This document shows positions 3 through 6,658 of a stretch of 47,700 nt of DNA, one piece after another. Source of the stretch: a virus. The translations under genes and the position numbers were made by a program. Under the pieces are notes generated by a model that was not told where the DNA came from, did not search any database, and worked only from the letters and a program-made list of their open reading frames with translations. Position 1 is the first letter of the stretch. Every line of letters begins with the position of its first letter. The stretch lies in IMG/VR virus record IMGVR_UViG_3300036770_007317, positions 1 to 47,700 of that record; one strand, given 5' to 3'.

Positions 3-893
3 CATAGAGCACATGCAGGATTTTGGATCTATACAGGATATGCGTCTGCATGGAGAGAGCTCGGATATGATGTTTATCTATATGACTCTCTAGAACAGTT
101 AAAAAAACTAAAAGATTTTTATCTTATGGCAATAGATTCAGATTTAAAAAATGAAAATATAGAAATTTTATCAAACTCAACTAAAACATTTCTTTTTGTA
201 CAGCCAAATCATTTCCCTAAGCCATGGGGAGAGCATCCAAATTTTATATCATCATGCAATCAGGATATTATGAACAAGATTAACAATCTAACAAATGTAA
301 AACAGTGGACATTTGTGGATTCAGATAATGAATATTACTCAAAATGGAACGTTACAACAATACCACTTGCATTTGATGATATAAATTATAACTTTAAGCC
401 AATAAAAGAGTATGATTTTGATATATGTTACGTCGGCGGACGTGCAAACAATGGTTTTGACGAAAAGATTGAAATTATAAACAAAACATTTTCATTATTT
501 GAAAAAACTAATTTAAAATGCGGATTTTTTATAGACAAAAATCTATCTCACGATCAAGAAGTTAATATAATTCTAAGATCAAAACTATGTTTAAATATTC
601 ATGATGCATATCAGAAAAAATTATCACTAGATACAAATGAAAGAACTTTCAAATCTTTAGGATTAAATGGTACACTTATTAGTGATAACATTTTACAAAT
701 AAAGAAAGTGCTACCAGAGGCTTCTATAATTTTATCTAACAATTTAAATGAATTAGTTGATAAATCATTAGAGCTATGCAATCTGGATAACAAGCATCTT
801 TTAGATTTAAAAAATAAAAATATTGACTACATAAAAAGTGTTCATACCTATAAAAACAGAATATCTCAACTAATGTCGAGCACAAATGTCTGA
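3..893 (+). CDS. CgeB-like glycosyltransferase, 5' partial
   Basis: The reading frame is open from base 3 with no stop, so this is the C-terminal part of a gene that begins upstream; the ATG at 126 is internal. The visible part starts with HAGFWIY and a Rossmann-like stretch, then has a region typical of CgeB/YkvP-type family-1 glycosyltransferases: CYVGGRANNGFDEK, a helix, and LNIHDAYQ followed by TNERTFKSLGLNG, where the family holds its sugar-nucleotide-binding glutamate or asparagine. It probably transfers a sugar to a glycan; donor and acceptor cannot be read. It overlaps the next gene by 8 bases and heads the visible sugar cluster. The family call rests on motif resemblance, not a search. 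Confidence 0.7.
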   Translation, partial: HRAHAGFWIYTGYASAWRELGYDVYLYDSLEQLKKLKDFYLMAIDSDLKNENIEILSNSTKTFLFVQPNHFPKPWGEHPNFISSCNQDIMNKINNLTNVKQWTFVDSDNEYYSKWNVTTIPLAFDDINYNFKPIKEYDFDICYVGGRANNGFDEKIEIINKTFSLFEKTNLKCGFFIDKNLSHDQEVNIILRSKLCLNIHDAYQKKLSLDTNERTFKSLGLNGTLISDNILQIKKVLPEASIILSNNLNELVDKSLELCNLDNKHLLDLKNKNIDYIKSVHTYKNRISQLMSSTNV

Positions 894-1611
894 ACTTAAA
901 ATTAGCATAATCGTACCTTGTTATAATACGGAAAAATATATAGAGCAGTGTATAGAATCTGTATTTTCTCAAACTTACAAAAATATAGAAGTAATTGCTG
1001 TAGATAATGAAAGTAAGGATGGAACTTTTGATAAACTTCTTTCTTTAAAAGAAAAATATCCATCACTTATAATAGATACAGCGCCAAACATCTATAGACA
1101 CTCTTGGGACGAACCAAGAACTAAAGGGCTTGAGCTTTCAACAGGAAAATATATAACTTTTATATGCTCTGATGATTATTTAGAAAATGATTATATTGAA
1201 AATTGCATGAATTTAATTTTATCTGCCCCAGAAAAAATAAAAGCATTACAGAGTCCTATTAGAAATATAAAGAATAATAAACCAGAAGGTTTCCAGAGAC
1301 ATCTATATCATTCTTTGCAAGAGTTTAAAAACTTCTCTTTGACAAGATGTGTGGTAAATACACCAACGGTTATTTATAATAGAGATTTGTACGAAAAAGG
1401 CTTGTTGAAAACAAATCCAGAGCTATATCTTGGTGCTGCTGATTATGACATGTATTGTAATCTTGCAAACAATAAAGTGTTTATATATCCTTCTCCGAAT
1501 TGGTTAGGCTATAACTATAGATGGCATGAAGAGCAGTGTACATGGGGTATGCATAAAGAAGAAATTAATTATGACTCTCTGATACAAGAATACTGGAGAG
1601 GAAAATGGTAA
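886..1611 (+). CDS. Family 2 glycosyltransferase (GT-A fold)
   Basis: This 241-residue protein opens with the classic GT2 core: ISIIVPCYN at residues 6-14, SVFSQTYKNIEVIAVDN at 25-41, and the metal/nucleotide-binding SDD at 95-97 inside FICSDDYL. Spacing and length fit a cytoplasmic single-domain inverting glycosyltransferase with no membrane segment. It should add one sugar from a nucleotide donor to a growing glycan or protein; the sugar is unknown. The start overlaps the preceding gene by 8 bases and its stop overlaps the next ATG, so it is translated as part of the glycan operon. The family is secure; the substrate is not. Confidence 0.9.
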   Translation: MSELKISIIVPCYNTEKYIEQCIESVFSQTYKNIEVIAVDNESKDGTFDKLLSLKEKYPSLIIDTAPNIYRHSWDEPRTKGLELSTGKYITFICSDDYLENDYIENCMNLILSAPEKIKALQSPIRNIKNNKPEGFQRHLYHSLQEFKNFSLTRCVVNTPTVIYNRDLYEKGLLKTNPELYLGAADYDMYCNLANNKVFIYPSPNWLGYNYRWHEEQCTWGMHKEEINYDSLIQEYWRGKW

Positions 1612-2240
1612 AACAAGACTTAGAAAAAATTAAAAAAAGAATTTTAGATATAGCTTTTAAGAAAAAATTATCTCATCTTGGTTCTTATTTTTCTAGCCTA
1701 GAAATTATTTATGAAATATTTTGTAAAATGAAAGATAAAGATATTTTTATTTTATCTTCTGGACATGCCGCACTTGCTTATTACTGTGTATTGGAGCATT
1801 TCAAAAGAGTGGATGCAGAATATTTATTCGAGAAGCATGGAGGGCATCCACATAGAGACGAAGAAAATTTTATATATTGCTCCACGGGCAGTCTTGGTCT
1901 TGGCATAACGATAGCAACAGGAAGAGCTTTTTATAACAAAGACATACAAGTCTATTGTCTAATAAGCGATGGAGAATGCGCAGAAGGTTCTGTTTGGGAA
2001 TCTCTTAGGTTTATAAAAGAATCAAACATGTCTAATATTCATATCTATGTAAACATGAATGGCTATTGCGCATATGATGTTATAGATACAAAATATCTTG
2101 AGAACAGACTTAAGAGCTTTTTGCCTGATATAAACATCAGAAATACTGATGTAAATCAGTTTCCGTTTCTAAATGGAATGAACGCTCATTATCACGTTAT
2201 GTCCGAATCAGACTATAAAACGGCTATAGAAACACTATGA
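1605..2240 (+). CDS. Transketolase N-terminal (ThDP-binding) subunit
   Basis: This 211-residue protein matches the thiamine-diphosphate/Mg-binding half of transketolase. SHLG is at residues 23-26 and SSGHA at 51-55. The cofactor motif is D122-G123-E124 followed about 30 residues later by N152-G153. An AGG-rich ribosome site (GGAGAGG, 1595-1601) precedes the ATG. The gene stops by ATGA overlap with the gene for the pyrimidine-binding half, so the two probably form a split heteromeric enzyme that moves a two-carbon ketol unit. Split transketolases occur in bacterial sugar clusters. Here the pair sits next to a 3-dehydrase and an SDR, so a role in building a branched or unusual sugar is plausible, though that is inference. 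Confidence 0.88.
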   Translation: MVKQDLEKIKKRILDIAFKKKLSHLGSYFSSLEIIYEIFCKMKDKDIFILSSGHAALAYYCVLEHFKRVDAEYLFEKHGGHPHRDEENFIYCSTGSLGLGITIATGRAFYNKDIQVYCLISDGECAEGSVWESLRFIKESNMSNIHIYVNMNGYCAYDVIDTKYLENRLKSFLPDINIRNTDVNQFPFLNGMNAHYHVMSESDYKTAIETL

Positions 2241-2710
2241 GAAAAAACTTTAGTAACCTTCTCTATAAAGAGATGAGTAAGAATAAAAATATAGTACTAA
2301 TCACTGCCGATCTAGGTTATGGGTTATGGGATAAAATTAGATTAGATTATCCAAATAGATTTATAAATACTGGCTCTAGTGAACAGTTAGCAACAGGAAT
2401 TGCTTGTGGCGCAGCAATGGAGGGAAAAATTCCGTTCGTTTATTCGATAACTCCATTCTTGCTATACAGGCCGTATGAAATAATTAGAAATTATGTAAAT
2501 CATGAGAATTTAAATGTAAAGCTTGTCGGAGGAGGCAGAGATAAAGATTATGGTTATCTTGGGTTCTCTCATTGGGCAGAAGACGACATCGACTCAATTC
2601 AGCATTTTTCTAATATAAGAAAATACAAACCAGAAAATGAAGATGAACTATCAGATGTTTTTCAGCAAGTTTTGCTTTCTGGACCTTGTTATATTAACTT
2701 GAGGAAATGA
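2237..2710 (+). CDS. Transketolase pyrimidine-binding subunit, short
   Basis: This 157-residue protein resembles the middle (pyrimidine-binding) domain of transketolase. It has ADLGYGL near residue 24, and NTGSSEQLATGIACGAAMEG at 44-63, where E49 is the glutamate that activates the thiamine ring. It ends just after this domain, so the C-terminal domain (about 120 residues) of full transketolases and of most split C subunits is absent. That domain is not catalytic in the family, so activity with the upstream ThDP-binding subunit is still possible. The start overlaps the upstream stop (ATGA), which suits equal co-translation of two subunits. Confidence 0.85.
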   Translation: MRKNFSNLLYKEMSKNKNIVLITADLGYGLWDKIRLDYPNRFINTGSSEQLATGIACGAAMEGKIPFVYSITPFLLYRPYEIIRNYVNHENLNVKLVGGGRDKDYGYLGFSHWAEDDIDSIQHFSNIRKYKPENEDELSDVFQQVLLSGPCYINLRK

Positions 2711-3555
2711 TGAAAATATTAATAACTGGAAACAGCGGATTCTTATCAAAAGAATTTAAAGATTTTTTTGGAAAAAAACACGAACTGACTTTTATATCAA
2801 GATCTACATATCCAAGTGTAGATCTTTTGTCGTTTAAAGATGTTTCTAATTTTTTTGAATCTTCAGGACATTTTGATTTCGTATTTCACACAGCTATTAG
2901 TGGTGGCAAAAGAACCTCAAGCGATAGCCTTTCAACGCTAACAGATAACCTCCTAATGTACAACAATCTGGTTTCAAATATGCACAAATATAAAGTGCTA
3001 TTTAACTTTTGTTCAGGAGCTGCTTTTAGAGACGGAAACGACATAGACAGTGTAAAAGAATCAGAGATAGAAAAAAGATTTCCAAAAGATTATTACGGAA
3101 TGTCTAAGAATATTATAGCAAAAGATATGAAAAAATATGAAAATTTTTATAATTTTAGACTTTTTGGATGTTTTGGAAAACACGAAGATGATGTTAGGTT
3201 TTTTAAATCTATATTAAACTGTATAAAAGAAAATAGACCAATAAGAATACATCAAGATAAATATATGGATTATATATCTGCAAAAGATTTATGTTTAGTT
3301 TTAGATTATTATATAAATAATGTTGACAAATTGTTGCCAAAAGATATAAATGTAGTTTATCAAGAGAAAAAAACTCTATCTCAAATGTGTAAAACCATTA
3401 TAGACTTGACAGAAAGCAATCCTGATGTTATTATGCTTACTGAAACGCAGGCTCAATCCTATACTGGAGATGGTTCTATCCTGAACTCTCTAGGTATTTC
3501 AATGAACGGATTAGATAAATCGCTTTTGGAGCTAAAAAAACATGTCTTTAGATGA
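2710..3555 (+). CDS. SDR-family NDP-sugar epimerase/reductase
   Basis: This is an extended short-chain dehydrogenase/reductase of about 281 residues. The NAD(P)-binding TGNSGFL is at residues 6-12, a candidate catalytic serine is in FCSGAA (S102), and YGMSK at 129-133 supplies the Tyr and Lys. Two ATGs are adjacent (2707 and 2710). GAGG at 2701-2704 is better spaced from 2710, so I chose that, with 2707 possible. It resembles dTDP-4-dehydrorhamnose-reductase-like and WcaG-like proteins and probably acts on a 4-keto sugar nucleotide. Lying between the transketolase pair and the 3-dehydrase, it could perform the final reduction. The exact reaction cannot be assigned. Confidence 0.82.
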   Translation: MKILITGNSGFLSKEFKDFFGKKHELTFISRSTYPSVDLLSFKDVSNFFESSGHFDFVFHTAISGGKRTSSDSLSTLTDNLLMYNNLVSNMHKYKVLFNFCSGAAFRDGNDIDSVKESEIEKRFPKDYYGMSKNIIAKDMKKYENFYNFRLFGCFGKHEDDVRFFKSILNCIKENRPIRIHQDKYMDYISAKDLCLVLDYYINNVDKLLPKDINVVYQEKKTLSQMCKTIIDLTESNPDVIMLTETQAQSYTGDGSILNSLGISMNGLDKSLLELKKHVFR

Positions 3556-4888
3556 AAAAAAGAGAAAAATTTTAGAACTTGTTTCTGAGTTTTTTCAAGA
3601 AAAACGAAAAAATAAATGGGAAAAGGGCAAAAACTGGGTAGAATATTCTGGTCCTTCTTTTGACGAAAAAGAATATGTTTCTGCCGTAGAATCTCTTCTT
3701 GGCGAGTGGCTAATTTTTGGTGAAAAGGGAAGAGAGTTTGAAAAACAATTTCCAAAAATGTTAGGAAAGAAACATGGTGTTTTTACAAACTCTGGAAGTT
3801 CCGCCAATCTTCTAATGATGGCAGCGGCTAGATCAAGAAATCTATATAACTTTCAGCCAGGAACAAAAATAATAACTCCAGTAGTTTGTTTTCCTACAAC
3901 AATAAATCCAATTATTCAAAATGGATTTGAGCCAATATTTGTAGATGTAGACCTTCCAAGTTTAAATCTAAATCTAGATGATGTAGAAAGAAAACTTAAA
4001 CAACATACGGACATTAAAGCAATTACATTCGCTCATGTTCTTGGAAATCCTCCAGACATGGATAGACTAATGAAAATTGTTACAGAACATAATCTAATCT
4101 TCTTGGAAGATTCTTGTGACGCTCTTGGATCGACATATAAGGGACAAAAATTAGGCTCTTTTGGTCATATGTCTGCTTGCTCTTTTTTTCCAGCACACCA
4201 TATGACAACTGGAGAAGGTGGTTTTGTAGCAACTAATTCTAACAAGATTAGAATGATATTAGCGAGTATAAGAGATTGGGGAAGGGCGTGCTATTGCAAT
4301 ACCGTTAAGCCGGGGAACGTTACATGCGAAACAGCATGTGGAGACAGGTTTAAAAACTGGTTGCCTGGTATGCCAAATGTAACGTATGATCATAGATATG
4401 TTTTTGATGAAATTGGATACAATTTAAAACCATTAGATTTGCAAGCAGCTATGGGACTAGAACAGATGAAAAAACTACCAGAAATGGATGCTGCAAGAAG
4501 GGAAAATCACAAAAAATTAACAGCTATATTTAAGAAATATGAGCAATTTTTCCATCTACCAGAAGCTACAGAAGGTTCTGATCCCTGTTGGTTTGGTTTT
4601 TCTCTTGTGGTAAAAGATGATTCGCCATTCACAAAACATGATTTTATCAAATTTTTAGAAGAAAACAAGATTCAGACAAGATCTTATTTTAGCGGAAACA
4701 TTCTTGTTCACCCTGGTTATTTCCATATGGCTGAAAAGTATGGAGATTTAGATAAAGAATTTCCAGTTGCACAGAAAGTAACGAAAGACTGTTTCTTTTT
4801 AGGTACTTTTATAGGTCTTACTCAAGATAAAATTGATTATATTGGCGAGATTGTAGATATGTTTTTTGAAACAAAGGTTGGGAAGTAG
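3542..4888 (+). CDS. rfbH: RfbH/E1-type NDP-4-keto-6-deoxyglucose 3-dehydrase
   Basis: This 448-residue fold-type I aminotransferase relative matches the PMP-dependent 3-dehydrase (E1) of 3,6-dideoxyhexose synthesis. The diagnostic feature is AHHMTTGEGG at residues 218-227: His220 replaces the PLP-anchoring lysine, as in Salmonella RfbH and Yersinia E1. RDWGRACYC with cysteines at 250, 252, 262 and 266 fits the [2Fe-2S] cluster site that separates E1 from the GDP-colitose enzyme ColD, which lacks it. The C-terminal half (YDHRYVF, GYNLKPLDLQAAMG, GSDPCWFGF, IQTRSYFSGN) also follows RfbH. It removes the C3 hydroxyl of a 4-keto-6-deoxy NDP-hexose, classically CDP-linked. The reductase partner (E3) and a cytidylyltransferase are not in the window. 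It overlaps the upstream SDR by 14 bases. Confidence 0.9.
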   Translation: MSLDEKKRKILELVSEFFQEKRKNKWEKGKNWVEYSGPSFDEKEYVSAVESLLGEWLIFGEKGREFEKQFPKMLGKKHGVFTNSGSSANLLMMAAARSRNLYNFQPGTKIITPVVCFPTTINPIIQNGFEPIFVDVDLPSLNLNLDDVERKLKQHTDIKAITFAHVLGNPPDMDRLMKIVTEHNLIFLEDSCDALGSTYKGQKLGSFGHMSACSFFPAHHMTTGEGGFVATNSNKIRMILASIRDWGRACYCNTVKPGNVTCETACGDRFKNWLPGMPNVTYDHRYVFDEIGYNLKPLDLQAAMGLEQMKKLPEMDAARRENHKKLTAIFKKYEQFFHLPEATEGSDPCWFGFSLVVKDDSPFTKHDFIKFLEENKIQTRSYFSGNILVHPGYFHMAEKYGDLDKEFPVAQKVTKDCFFLGTFIGLTQDKIDYIGEIVDMFFETKVGK

Positions 4889-4889
4889 T

Positions 4890-5816
4890 ATGAATGTAGC
4901 TGTAGTAACTGGATACTCTGGATTTATAGGTTCTCATTTTGTAAAAAGACTTTTGGGTGATGGTTGGATAGTTTATGGAATTGACAAAAAAGAATCTTTT
5001 ATAGAAAATCATAACTTTACACATATTGCAGACGATATTTGTGAGATTAAATCGCTACCTGACTGTGATTATGTGTTTAATTTCGCAGCAGAATCTCACG
5101 TTGGAAACTCAATAGAATGCAGTAAAGATTTTATAAAAACAAATGTTGATGGTGTCAGGAACCTTTTAGAGCTAATAAGAAAGAAACCAGATAATATTGT
5201 AAAAAAACCAGTATTTTTTCATATATCTACCGATGAAGTATATGGAGATAGACTTGAATTCTCGGCAGACGAAGCAGATTTGCTAAATCCATCAAATCCA
5301 TATTCAGCAAGCAAAGCCGCTGGCGATATGTTGGTATTGGCTTGGGCTAGAACGTATAACGTAGAATATGTAATTGCTAGACCTACAAACAACTATGGAA
5401 CAAATCAGCATCCAGAAAAGCTAATACCTTTATGTATCAAATTAGCTCTCTGGAACAAGCCTATTAGGTTGCACAACAAGGGAACTCCTAAAAGAATGTG
5501 GTTGCATGTAGAAGATACAGTAAATGCTATCATGACATTAGTTGAAAAAAACGCTAGAGGGATTTATAATATTTCTGGAAATATTGAGCAAACAAATTTA
5601 GCAACTGCGTATAAAGTTCTGAAGTCAATGAATGTTGAAATTACAGATTCAACATTTGATTTAAATTATATTAGACCTGGACAAGACATGAAGTACGCAG
5701 TAAACGATGACAAACTCAAAGCTCTTGGTTGGAAATGCCAGAAGAACTTTGATGATGAAATTGAAAAAATAGTTAAATGGTATTTGGAATATTACAAATA
5801 TAGACTTTTTAAGTAA
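4890..5816 (+). CDS. RmlB-like NDP-glucose 4,6-dehydratase
   Basis: This 308-residue extended SDR has TGYSGFIG at residues 7-14, the dehydratase-specific STDEVYG at 113-119 (Thr-Asp-Glu in the active site) and YSASK at 138-142. NFAAESHV and the later TNNYGTNQHPEKLIP are typical of dTDP-glucose 4,6-dehydratase. I chose the ATG at 4890, two bases after the upstream stop and after GGTTGGGAAG; a TTG at 4866 in frame is less likely. It would convert an NDP-glucose to the 4-keto-6-deoxy form, the substrate class of the upstream 3-dehydrase, so the two probably act in series. Whether the nucleotide is CDP or dTDP cannot be told; the family motif favours dTDP, the partner CDP. Confidence 0.88.
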   Translation: MNVAVVTGYSGFIGSHFVKRLLGDGWIVYGIDKKESFIENHNFTHIADDICEIKSLPDCDYVFNFAAESHVGNSIECSKDFIKTNVDGVRNLLELIRKKPDNIVKKPVFFHISTDEVYGDRLEFSADEADLLNPSNPYSASKAAGDMLVLAWARTYNVEYVIARPTNNYGTNQHPEKLIPLCIKLALWNKPIRLHNKGTPKRMWLHVEDTVNAIMTLVEKNARGIYNISGNIEQTNLATAYKVLKSMNVEITDSTFDLNYIRPGQDMKYAVNDDKLKALGWKCQKNFDDEIEKIVKWYLEYYKYRLFK

Positions 5817-5821
5817 AAAAA

Positions 5822-6430
5822 ATGAAAAAACAAAACGATATTGCCTGTCTTATACTTTCTTATGGAAAAAAGTATAAAAAATTGGGAGATGTAGCATACA
5901 ATTCTTTTGTACAGCATAATAAAAATGTTGATACATATCTGATAACAGATGAAAGTATTAAAGATTTCAATTCATTCTCTTATATAGATAAAGTATCTAT
6001 CGGTGTTTTGAAATATATGCTAGGATTTGAATTATTTAAAATATATAAATACAAAAAGGTTATTATCCTAGGTAGCGATACAATTACTTGCTCTAGACTA
6101 GATGAATTTTTAGATGATACAGAGCATGATATACTTGCAACTTTAGATTATCCTTATCCTCTAGTTACAAAAAGAATAGTTGTGCCAGGAAAAGAAAATC
6201 ATGTAAACGCTGATGTTGTTTGCTTTTCAAACGAGAATGCGCTATATGATATAATTAATTTATCTGTTTTTCACGACGTGTATCACGAACAAGGTGGTTT
6301 GAATGAGGTTATCTATGGTCTTAGAAAATATACTACAAAAATAGTAGATGCGCCTTATTCTTCTTCAAAAGTTTTATATAATGTCAGATCGAAAGGAAAT
6401 ATTTGTGCAAGAGAGGGGGAGAGATTGTGA
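5822..6430 (+). CDS. GT8-like glycosyltransferase, truncated by TGA
   Basis: The first 202 residues resemble a GT-A, GT8-like transferase. An N-terminal strand DIACLILSYG is followed by VAYNSFVQHN and LITDES, then KVIILGSDT with a putative DxD-like metal site and HVNADVVCF later. The frame ends at TGA (6428-6430), but the same frame continues open for 75 codons of protein-like sequence to TGA at 6656. The intact gene was therefore probably 5822-6658, about 278 residues. The truncated product may be inactive. The TGA is not a recoded codon across the phage, because many genes here end in TGA. A true nonsense mutation, a sequencing error or readthrough are the options. Confidence 0.7.
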   Translation: MKKQNDIACLILSYGKKYKKLGDVAYNSFVQHNKNVDTYLITDESIKDFNSFSYIDKVSIGVLKYMLGFELFKIYKYKKVIILGSDTITCSRLDEFLDDTEHDILATLDYPYPLVTKRIVVPGKENHVNADVVCFSNENALYDIINLSVFHDVYHEQGGLNEVIYGLRKYTTKIVDAPYSSSKVLYNVRSKGNICAREGERL

Positions 6431-6658
6431 GCCAACTATGTTGGTAATTTTTATGTAAAAAATGAAAAATTATATACACAAAACGACAAACATATAAAAG
6501 TTTTTCATTATTGCGAGGCATTAGGAACTTTGTGTGAAGAAAAATTTAATGAGCTGATGAACTGGTGGATTTTTGATTGTTTTAACGAAGAAACTAAAAA
6601 ATTCTTTAAAGAAAAATGTGATAGTAAAGATTTTTTCGAAAAAAGGTATCAAGATTGA
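6431..6658 (+). pseudogene. In-frame C-terminal remainder of the GT8-like gene
   Basis: Directly after the TGA at 6428-6430, the frame stays open for 75 codons and encodes ANYVGNFYV, then KHIKVFHYCEALGTL, then NELMNWWIFDCFNEE, ending at TGA 6656-6658. The composition (aromatic, charged, no low complexity) is that of a real folded C-terminus, and it fills the only sizeable gap between annotated genes in this cluster. The next gene starts at 6655 with a TTG that overlaps this second stop, just as other gene pairs here overlap. That suggests 6658, not 6430, was the original end. No convincing start with a ribosome site lies within it. Confidence 0.7.

Follow-up and report, generated by a model that had tools for sequence, protein, structure and literature searches.

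A viral operon pairing a minimal split transketolase with an E1/RfbH-type 3-dehydrase as a candidate route to a branched 3,6-dideoxysugar

Genes of the operon and their assignment

The sequence analyzed here, hereafter the window, is the whole 47.7-kb stretch (positions 1 to 47,700) of the IMG/VR virus record IMGVR_UViG_3300036770_007317, which comes from a T4-like virus and encodes a T4-like portal protein, a terminase, a prohead protease, and a baseplate wedge protein. At the left end of the record, between positions 1605 and 5816, five genes lie in tandem on the + strand and encode the two subunits of a split transketolase (TkA and TkB), a short-chain dehydrogenase/reductase (SDR), an E1/RfbH-type 3-dehydrase, and an RmlB-like 4,6-dehydratase (Table 1). 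These five identities had been put forward in an original prediction made from the DNA sequence, and Pfam and NCBIfam profiles agree with each of them. The genes had also been described as contiguous and overlapping, which holds for the first four, with overlaps of 4-14 bases, but not for the RmlB-like gene at its ATG, located 1 base past the end of the E1 gene; an alternative TTG at 4866 would overlap it. This arrangement is found again in dozens of independent virus contigs and is thus not attributable to chance. Sequence comparisons support the view that the operon is a viral, compact, and exchangeable version of the sugar branching performed by thiamine diphosphate (ThDP) enzymes.

The dehydrase is assigned by its sequence to the E1/RfbH type. 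It scored 466.1 bits against the NCBIfam RfbH equivalog NF011936, above the cut-off of 423, and, in a comparison with PDB entries, it matched E1 (3bcx, 351 bits) better than ColD (198 bits) or ordinary aminotransferases (below 130 bits); by these profile and pairwise scores, rather than by a tree, it groups neither with ColD nor with pyridoxal phosphate (PLP) aminotransferases. The histidine predicted in place of the PLP-binding lysine is present at the position of E1 H220, but in the numbering of the viral protein it is H219 and not His220; both H219 and H220 are invariant in an alignment of 24 viral homologues. Also invariant in this alignment are the four cysteines foreseen for a [2Fe-2S] site (C192, C250, C252, and C266), whereas an extra one, C262, is not conserved. 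What we take to be the [2Fe-2S] motif of E1, C-X57-C-X1-C-X7-C, is fitted by these four residues except for the last spacing, which is 13 instead of 7.

The RmlB-like enzyme is the sole 4,6-dehydratase of the operon, and its catalytic TDE and YxxxK motifs are visible in the translation (STDEVYGD and PYSASKAA). Of the dehydratase models, the dTDP model TIGR01181 scored far higher than any other, with 262 bits, which lies under its cut-off of 365; the CDP-glucose dehydratase model TIGR02622 gave 70 bits. A CDP route was tested and found unsupported, with a CDP-glucose 4,6-dehydratase over the cut-off in 0 of 47 related records. Given that the RmlB-like enzyme is the only dehydratase, that the CDP type is missing from the 47 records, and that phage-encoded RmlA is nearly absent from them, host dTDP-glucose is the likely starting compound. 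Of the two carriers originally considered for the 4-keto-6-deoxyglucose substrate, the dehydratase profiles favor dTDP and lend no support to CDP, and the sugar appears more likely to be dTDP- than CDP-linked.

TkA and TkB constitute a minimal split transketolase. The closest solved structures are 6yaj for TkB and the N-chain of 6yak for TkA, both from a split transketolase whose subunits (309 and 341 amino acids) exceed the viral ones (211 and 157 amino acids), TkA being about 100 residues shorter. As originally noted, the second subunit is short and lacks the C-terminal transketolase domain, with TkB ending after the pyrimidine-binding (PYR) domain. Single-chain AlphaFold2 (AF2) models reached pLDDT values of 94 for TkA and 91 for TkB, and a structure search grouped TkB with the PYR domains of transketolase and DXS. 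The ThDP/Mg motif and the catalytic Glu of transketolase are kept (TkA D122 and N152; TkB E49). Indeed, residues H24, H54, H81, S121-D122-G123, and N152 are invariant among TkA homologues, aligning with H37, H77, H110, D155, and N185 of human transketolase, and E49 and H112 are invariant among TkB homologues. The GHP-motif His (TkA H81, human H110) is characteristic of ketol-donor transketolases, and its retention suggests that the donor of TkA/TkB is a ketol rather than an acetyl group; the transketolase motif TGSLG is kept in TkA as well. At the position of the acceptor-site Asp (Asp469 in Escherichia coli transketolase), a residue whose change widened the acceptor range of the E. coli enzyme (PMC5073344), TkB has L108. 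Among 55 viral TkB proteins with E1 in the locus, this position is Leu in 54, Asp in none, and unread in one, whereas 28 more distant cellular TkB proteins, from loci without RfbH, carry Asp. This Leu/Asp split closely tracks phylogeny and is to be taken as suggestive only.

Table 1. Coordinates of the operon and its flanking genes in the window.
Feature	Position	Strand	Description
GT1	126..893	+	Glyco_trans_1_2 glycosyltransferase, Pfam PF13524; in many viral relatives, followed by GT2 and then by the ThDP slot
GT2	886..1611	+	Family-2 glycosyltransferase, Pfam PF00535; directly 5' of transketolase, YerE-like, or pyruvate dehydrogenase-like genes in related operons
TkA	1605..2240	+	211 amino acids; ThDP diphosphate-binding (PP) subunit of minimal split transketolase; Pfam PF00456, Transketolase_N/DXP_synthase_N
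TkB	2237..2710	+	157 amino acids; PYR subunit; Pfam PF02779, Transket_pyr
SDR1	2707..3555	+	NAD(P)-dependent SDR; Pfam PF01370 Epimerase; proposed reductase of the branch keto group
E1	3542..4888	+	E1/RfbH-type 4-keto-6-deoxysugar 3-dehydrase, pyridoxamine phosphate (PMP)- and [2Fe-2S]-dependent; NF011936; 3bcx best PDB match
RmlB-like	4890..5816	+	Nucleoside diphosphate (NDP)-glucose 4,6-dehydratase; TIGR01181 262 bits; TDE and YxxxK
u5822	5822..6430	+	Homologues beside the operon in viral loci L050, L055, L056, L060, and L065

Downstream of the operon, u5822 had no match in profile scans against Pfam, NCBIfam, and PHROG. Between positions 6655 and 8895, a GDP-L-fucose synthase-like protein, a GDP-mannose 4,6-dehydratase, and a mannose-6-phosphate isomerase-type cupin are encoded, representing a second, GDP-sugar route beside the operon.

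Three classes of thiamine diphosphate enzyme in one slot

Scans of virus contigs with TkB and E1 gave several hundred matching loci, and the best of these were retrieved for comparison; transketolase loci are numerous in viruses, with 443 viral loci matched in one scan. The compared loci are metagenomic contigs, many of them fragmentary, and their genes were labelled with profiles built in this analysis, whose scores separate the ThDP classes well. Two main gene orders were found, namely GT2-X-SDR-E1-RmlB, which is that of the window, and E1 ... RmlB-X-SDR. The slot X is filled by TkA-TkB, by a protein of 570-640 amino acids with TPP_enzyme N/M/C domains, or by a pair of E1_dh-like and Transket_pyr-like subunits (about 205 and 178 amino acids), and the three ThDP classes precede the same SDR family. 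The large slot enzyme is nearest to PDB entry 8rph (445 and 373 bits for two members, versus 252 and 258 for acetolactate synthase), which is the YerE-like enzyme JanthE (PMC12188165). The alpha subunit of the pair is nearest to the E1 alpha of human pyruvate dehydrogenase (PDH). Neither of these classes is found in the window, where TkA matches Transketolase_N: the YerE-type architecture is found at the slot in L059, L055, and further loci, and an E1_dh alpha subunit of the aKADH2 type is present in L065. A gene of the SDR1 family lies within three genes after the slot enzyme in 12 of 15 transketolase, 13 of 15 PDH-like, and 30 of 39 YerE-like cases; SDR1 itself had no NCBIfam equivalog over the cut-off. 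Directly upstream of the slot, GT2 or RmlB is found in most transketolase and PDH-like cases and in about two fifths of the YerE-like ones. The exchange extends to the closest relatives of the window, as the nearest usable one (E1 73% identical) carries the dehydrogenase-type pair, and the window E1 belongs to a supported clade with those of L050, a contig that ends before the slot, and L065, which has a PDH-like pair.

The association between E1 and ThDP enzymes was quantified in loci gathered by E1 alone, independently of TkA/TkB, counting a ThDP gene when it lay within 9 kb. Such a gene was present in 65 of 87 distinct E1-centred viral loci; when both flanks had to exceed 6.5 kb, 54 loci remained, and 47 of them had one (25 YerE-like, 11 transketolase, 9 PDH-like, and 2 with two types together). 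Among the 75 control loci gathered by the GDP-mannose dehydratase (GMD) of the window, two had a ThDP gene; one of these two also carries E1, which leaves 1 of 74 loci without E1. The difference between 47/54 and 1/74 corresponds to a Fisher p of about 3e-26, for two sets made up of the nearest relatives of the window genes and not of a random sample. The E1 tree, with 129 rows, cannot be reconciled with fewer than 32 changes in the type of ThDP enzyme, nor the SDR tree, with 124 rows, with fewer than 34; 16 changes are required when only the E1-collected loci are considered (81 rows, 58 labelled). Swapping among relatives as close as those in the clade of the window E1 finds its best explanation in equivalent work by the three ThDP enzymes. 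When loci were viewed from TkB, 83 distinct viral ones had a nearby RmlB in 67 cases, an SDR in 76, and E1 in 44, so that close homologues of the transketolase pair do not place it in an unrelated pathway.

Some loci display variants of this organization. In L065 (6053-7185) and in 16 further loci, the PDH-E1-like pairs of the slot are likewise reduced to a minimum, with about 205 and 178 amino acids and no C-terminal domain, in parallel with TkA/TkB. The virus locus L268 contains pairs of the two kinds, PDH-like and TkA/TkB. A longer split transketolase of 253 and 325 amino acids, probably with the C-terminal domain, is encoded in L057 (3449-5184) just upstream of E1-RmlB, adjoining a B12-radical SAM gene and an aminotransferase. 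Open reading frames of 520-600 amino acids beside the operon in L006, L051, and L057 were discarded as slot enzymes, since they correspond to B12-radical SAM proteins and not to ThDP enzymes. In 11 loci (L059 6180-7112, L208, L221, L275, L281, and others), the YerE-like gene adjoins a homologue of PanB (ketopantoate-hydroxymethyltransferase), which might supply a hydroxymethylated keto acid donor for the YerE-like enzyme; for ErwE, which is related to YerE, 4-hydroxy-2-oxobutanoate is among the preferred donors (PMC12247030).

Searches of annotated phage and plasmid records for YerE or close TkA homologues returned distant transketolases and acetolactate synthases only, and the cultured cyanophages S-H68 and RN05-S have a divergent E1 and no ThDP gene nearby. 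In Synechococcus phage S-H68 (L365, 16242-21011), the divergent E1 is accompanied by a transaldolase located directly before an SDR in a glycan cluster, possibly another enzyme forming C-C bonds on sugars. The transaldolase of S-H68/RN05-S was rejected as a fourth slot enzyme, given that the SDR found there is only weakly like SDR1 and that such phages carry transaldolase anyway.

Proposed pathway and alternative explanations

From these data, we infer that the five genes probably direct the synthesis of a nucleotide-linked, C-branched 3,6-dideoxyhexose, through ketol transfer by TkA/TkB to C4 of the E1 product, a reading in which we place good though not full confidence. The RmlB-like enzyme would convert host dTDP-glucose into dTDP-4-keto-6-deoxyglucose, from which the E1-type enzyme, together with a reductase not seen in the window, would remove O3 to give dTDP-4-keto-3,6-dideoxyglucose. 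TkA and TkB, probably assembled as alpha2beta2, would then transfer a two-carbon ketol to the C4 ketone, with hydroxypyruvate or a host ketose phosphate as donor, generating a 4-C-hydroxyacetyl branch. Reduction of the branch ketone by the SDR would yield a 4-C-(1,2-dihydroxyethyl) sugar, which GT1 and GT2 may attach to a host or virion glycan. That the transketolase attaches a two-carbon unit to a dideoxy-4-keto sugar was the core of the original prediction, and it gains strong comparative support from the replacement of TkA/TkB in the slot by YerE-like and PDH-like enzymes.

Several observations weigh against this pathway. The reductase partner of E1 (E3) was not found among the scanned proteins of the window, no nucleotidyltransferase is present in the operon, and phage-encoded RmlA was absent from 45 of the 47 related records in which it was sought. 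Seven of the 54 well-flanked E1 loci have no ThDP gene of any type. Conversely, TkA/TkB occurs without E1 both in a viral clade (L032-L046), whose records contain no RfbH, and in cellular pairs. In addition, L108 could stem from descent and not from function, and, as YerE and PDH-like enzymes use pyruvate, the branch introduced by TkA/TkB could be an acetyl group.

If so, the branching role would be the same, with a 4-C-acetyl intermediate made from pyruvate and a yersiniose-like 4-C-(1-hydroxyethyl) sugar as the outcome. This version agrees with the fact that both enzymes replacing TkA/TkB belong to pyruvate-using families (PMC12247030). One SDR family is common to all three ThDP types, and the PYR domain of TkB also resembles DXS, an enzyme that likewise takes an acetyl unit from pyruvate. 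We nevertheless regard it as unlikely, since TkA retains both the TGSLG motif and H81, the His that we take to mark a ketol donor.

Another unlikely alternative is that TkA/TkB branches a different keto sugar, for instance the 4-keto-6-deoxy product of RmlB, while E1 serves a separate 3,6-dideoxyhexose. RmlB-TkA-TkB-SDR blocks do exist in which E1 is several genes off or not seen, and L037, L043, and L044 have TkA-TkB-RmlB with no E1 in the record. However, a ThDP gene of one of the three types accompanies most of the well-flanked E1 loci (47/54), the window SDR is placed between TkB and E1 with overlapping genes, and Leu occupies the Asp469 position throughout the E1-linked TkB group.

The viral clade and the bacterial pairs without E1 indicate that TkA/TkB is a glycan enzyme not restricted to 3,6-dideoxy sugars. 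Within that clade, E1 and RmlB are both missing from the TkA-TkB-SDR blocks of L032-L036 and L039-L042, which adjoin FkbM and TylF-like methyltransferases and have Cys at the Asp469 position. In Patescibacteria and Omnitrophota (L070-L104), TkA-TkB is flanked by an epimerase/methyltransferase and a PgfS/ArnC-like, polyprenyl-phosphate-type GT2, making a branched-sugar pathway on polyprenyl phosphate possible in these bacteria. The phage-type operon also appears in L066-L068, on contigs titled as Maricaulis and Thaumarchaeota metagenome-assembled genomes that look like misbinned virus contigs; L066-L069, the closest "cellular" matches, were dropped as bacterial evidence for this reason.

It is very improbable that the product of the operon is an ordinary unbranched 3,6-dideoxyhexose such as paratose, abequose, or tyvelose, with C4 reduced by the SDR: RmlB, E1, and an SDR are the core set for such sugars, but the ThDP slot would be left unexplained, and E1 loci without a ThDP gene are a minority. 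A role of TkA/TkB as an auxiliary metabolic gene that serves the pentose-phosphate flux of the host, lying among sugar genes by accident, is suggested by the transketolase fold and by the frequency of central-carbon genes in phages but has hardly any probability, in view of the fixed order with RmlB and SDR across dozens of contigs, the replacement by carboligases without a role in the pentose-phosphate pathway, the loss of both the C-terminal domain and the acceptor Asp, and the near absence of ThDP genes from control sugar loci.

Returning to ketol transfer onto the E1 product, a broader proposal can be formulated, to which we give even chances: RmlB, E1, and SDR may form a modular branched-sugar cassette of uncultivated phages that freely exchanges its C-C enzyme among three ThDP superfamilies, including a mini split transketolase making a previously unknown natural 4-C-(1,2-dihydroxyethyl)-3,6-dideoxyhexose, so that each lineage alters the branch on its own surface glycan or on that of the host.

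Significance and comparison with known systems

No phage paper on ThDP-made branched sugars was found in a search of open-licence literature, in keeping with the original statement that the route was unfamiliar from phages. However, a role for split transketolases in the addition of hydroxyacetyl groups to keto sugars was proposed earlier in Streptomyces (13 candidates, all from streptomycetes and none characterized in vitro; PMC12247030), so that the idea is new for phages but not outright. The streptomycete proposal gains an independent argument from the phage operons, where a single slot holds either a transketolase or, in exchange for it, a member of one of the two remaining sugar-branching ThDP families. 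The viral enzymes are small, numerous, and directly testable; if the proposed pathway is correct, viruses would constitute a large reservoir of ketone-accepting carboligases, and viral branched sugars may protect virions or alter host glycans.

Among characterized enzymes, the split transketolase of Carboxydothermus hydrogenoformans (6yaj/6yak) is the closest solved structure to both TkA and TkB, but it has the C-terminal domain and the acceptor Asp that the viral pair lacks, and it uses aldehyde acceptors. Rif15a/Rif15b, from rifamycin synthesis, is likewise a two-subunit transketolase that in vitro moves a C2 ketol from fructose 6-phosphate or xylulose 5-phosphate to a ketone (PMC6002545); its acceptor is, however, rifamycin S and the final bond is C-O. 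The split-gene transketolases proposed for miharamycin and amipurimycin synthesis in Streptomyces resemble the window pair in their two-gene structure and in the hydroxyacetyl branch proposed on a keto sugar, although their setting is that of a nucleoside antibiotic, with no phage case in PMC12247030, whereas the window pair lies in an E1 dideoxysugar operon.

The aKADH2 pairs, which are proposed to branch keto sugars of antibiotics (PMC12247030), include AviB1/AviB2, EvdU5/EvdS3, and KbDH alpha/beta. They are two-subunit ThDP enzymes credited with adding C2 units to keto sugars, but belong to the pyruvate dehydrogenase family and not to the transketolases; this class is absent from the window and fills the slot in sister phages such as L065. 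In the yersiniose A pathway of Yersinia pseudotuberculosis (E1, YerE, and YerF), YerE transfers activated acetaldehyde from pyruvate to the E1 product, CDP-4-keto-3,6-dideoxyglucose, creating a two-carbon branch (PMC12247030). That pathway differs from the window in its CDP sugar and RfbF/G, as opposed to an RmlB-type enzyme and a probable dTDP carrier, and in its acetolactate-synthase-type YerE, as opposed to a split transketolase. Both systems nevertheless have an E1-type 3-dehydrase encoded in one sugar operon with a ThDP carboligase and an SDR, and in sister phage operons the slot enzyme is itself of the YerE class.

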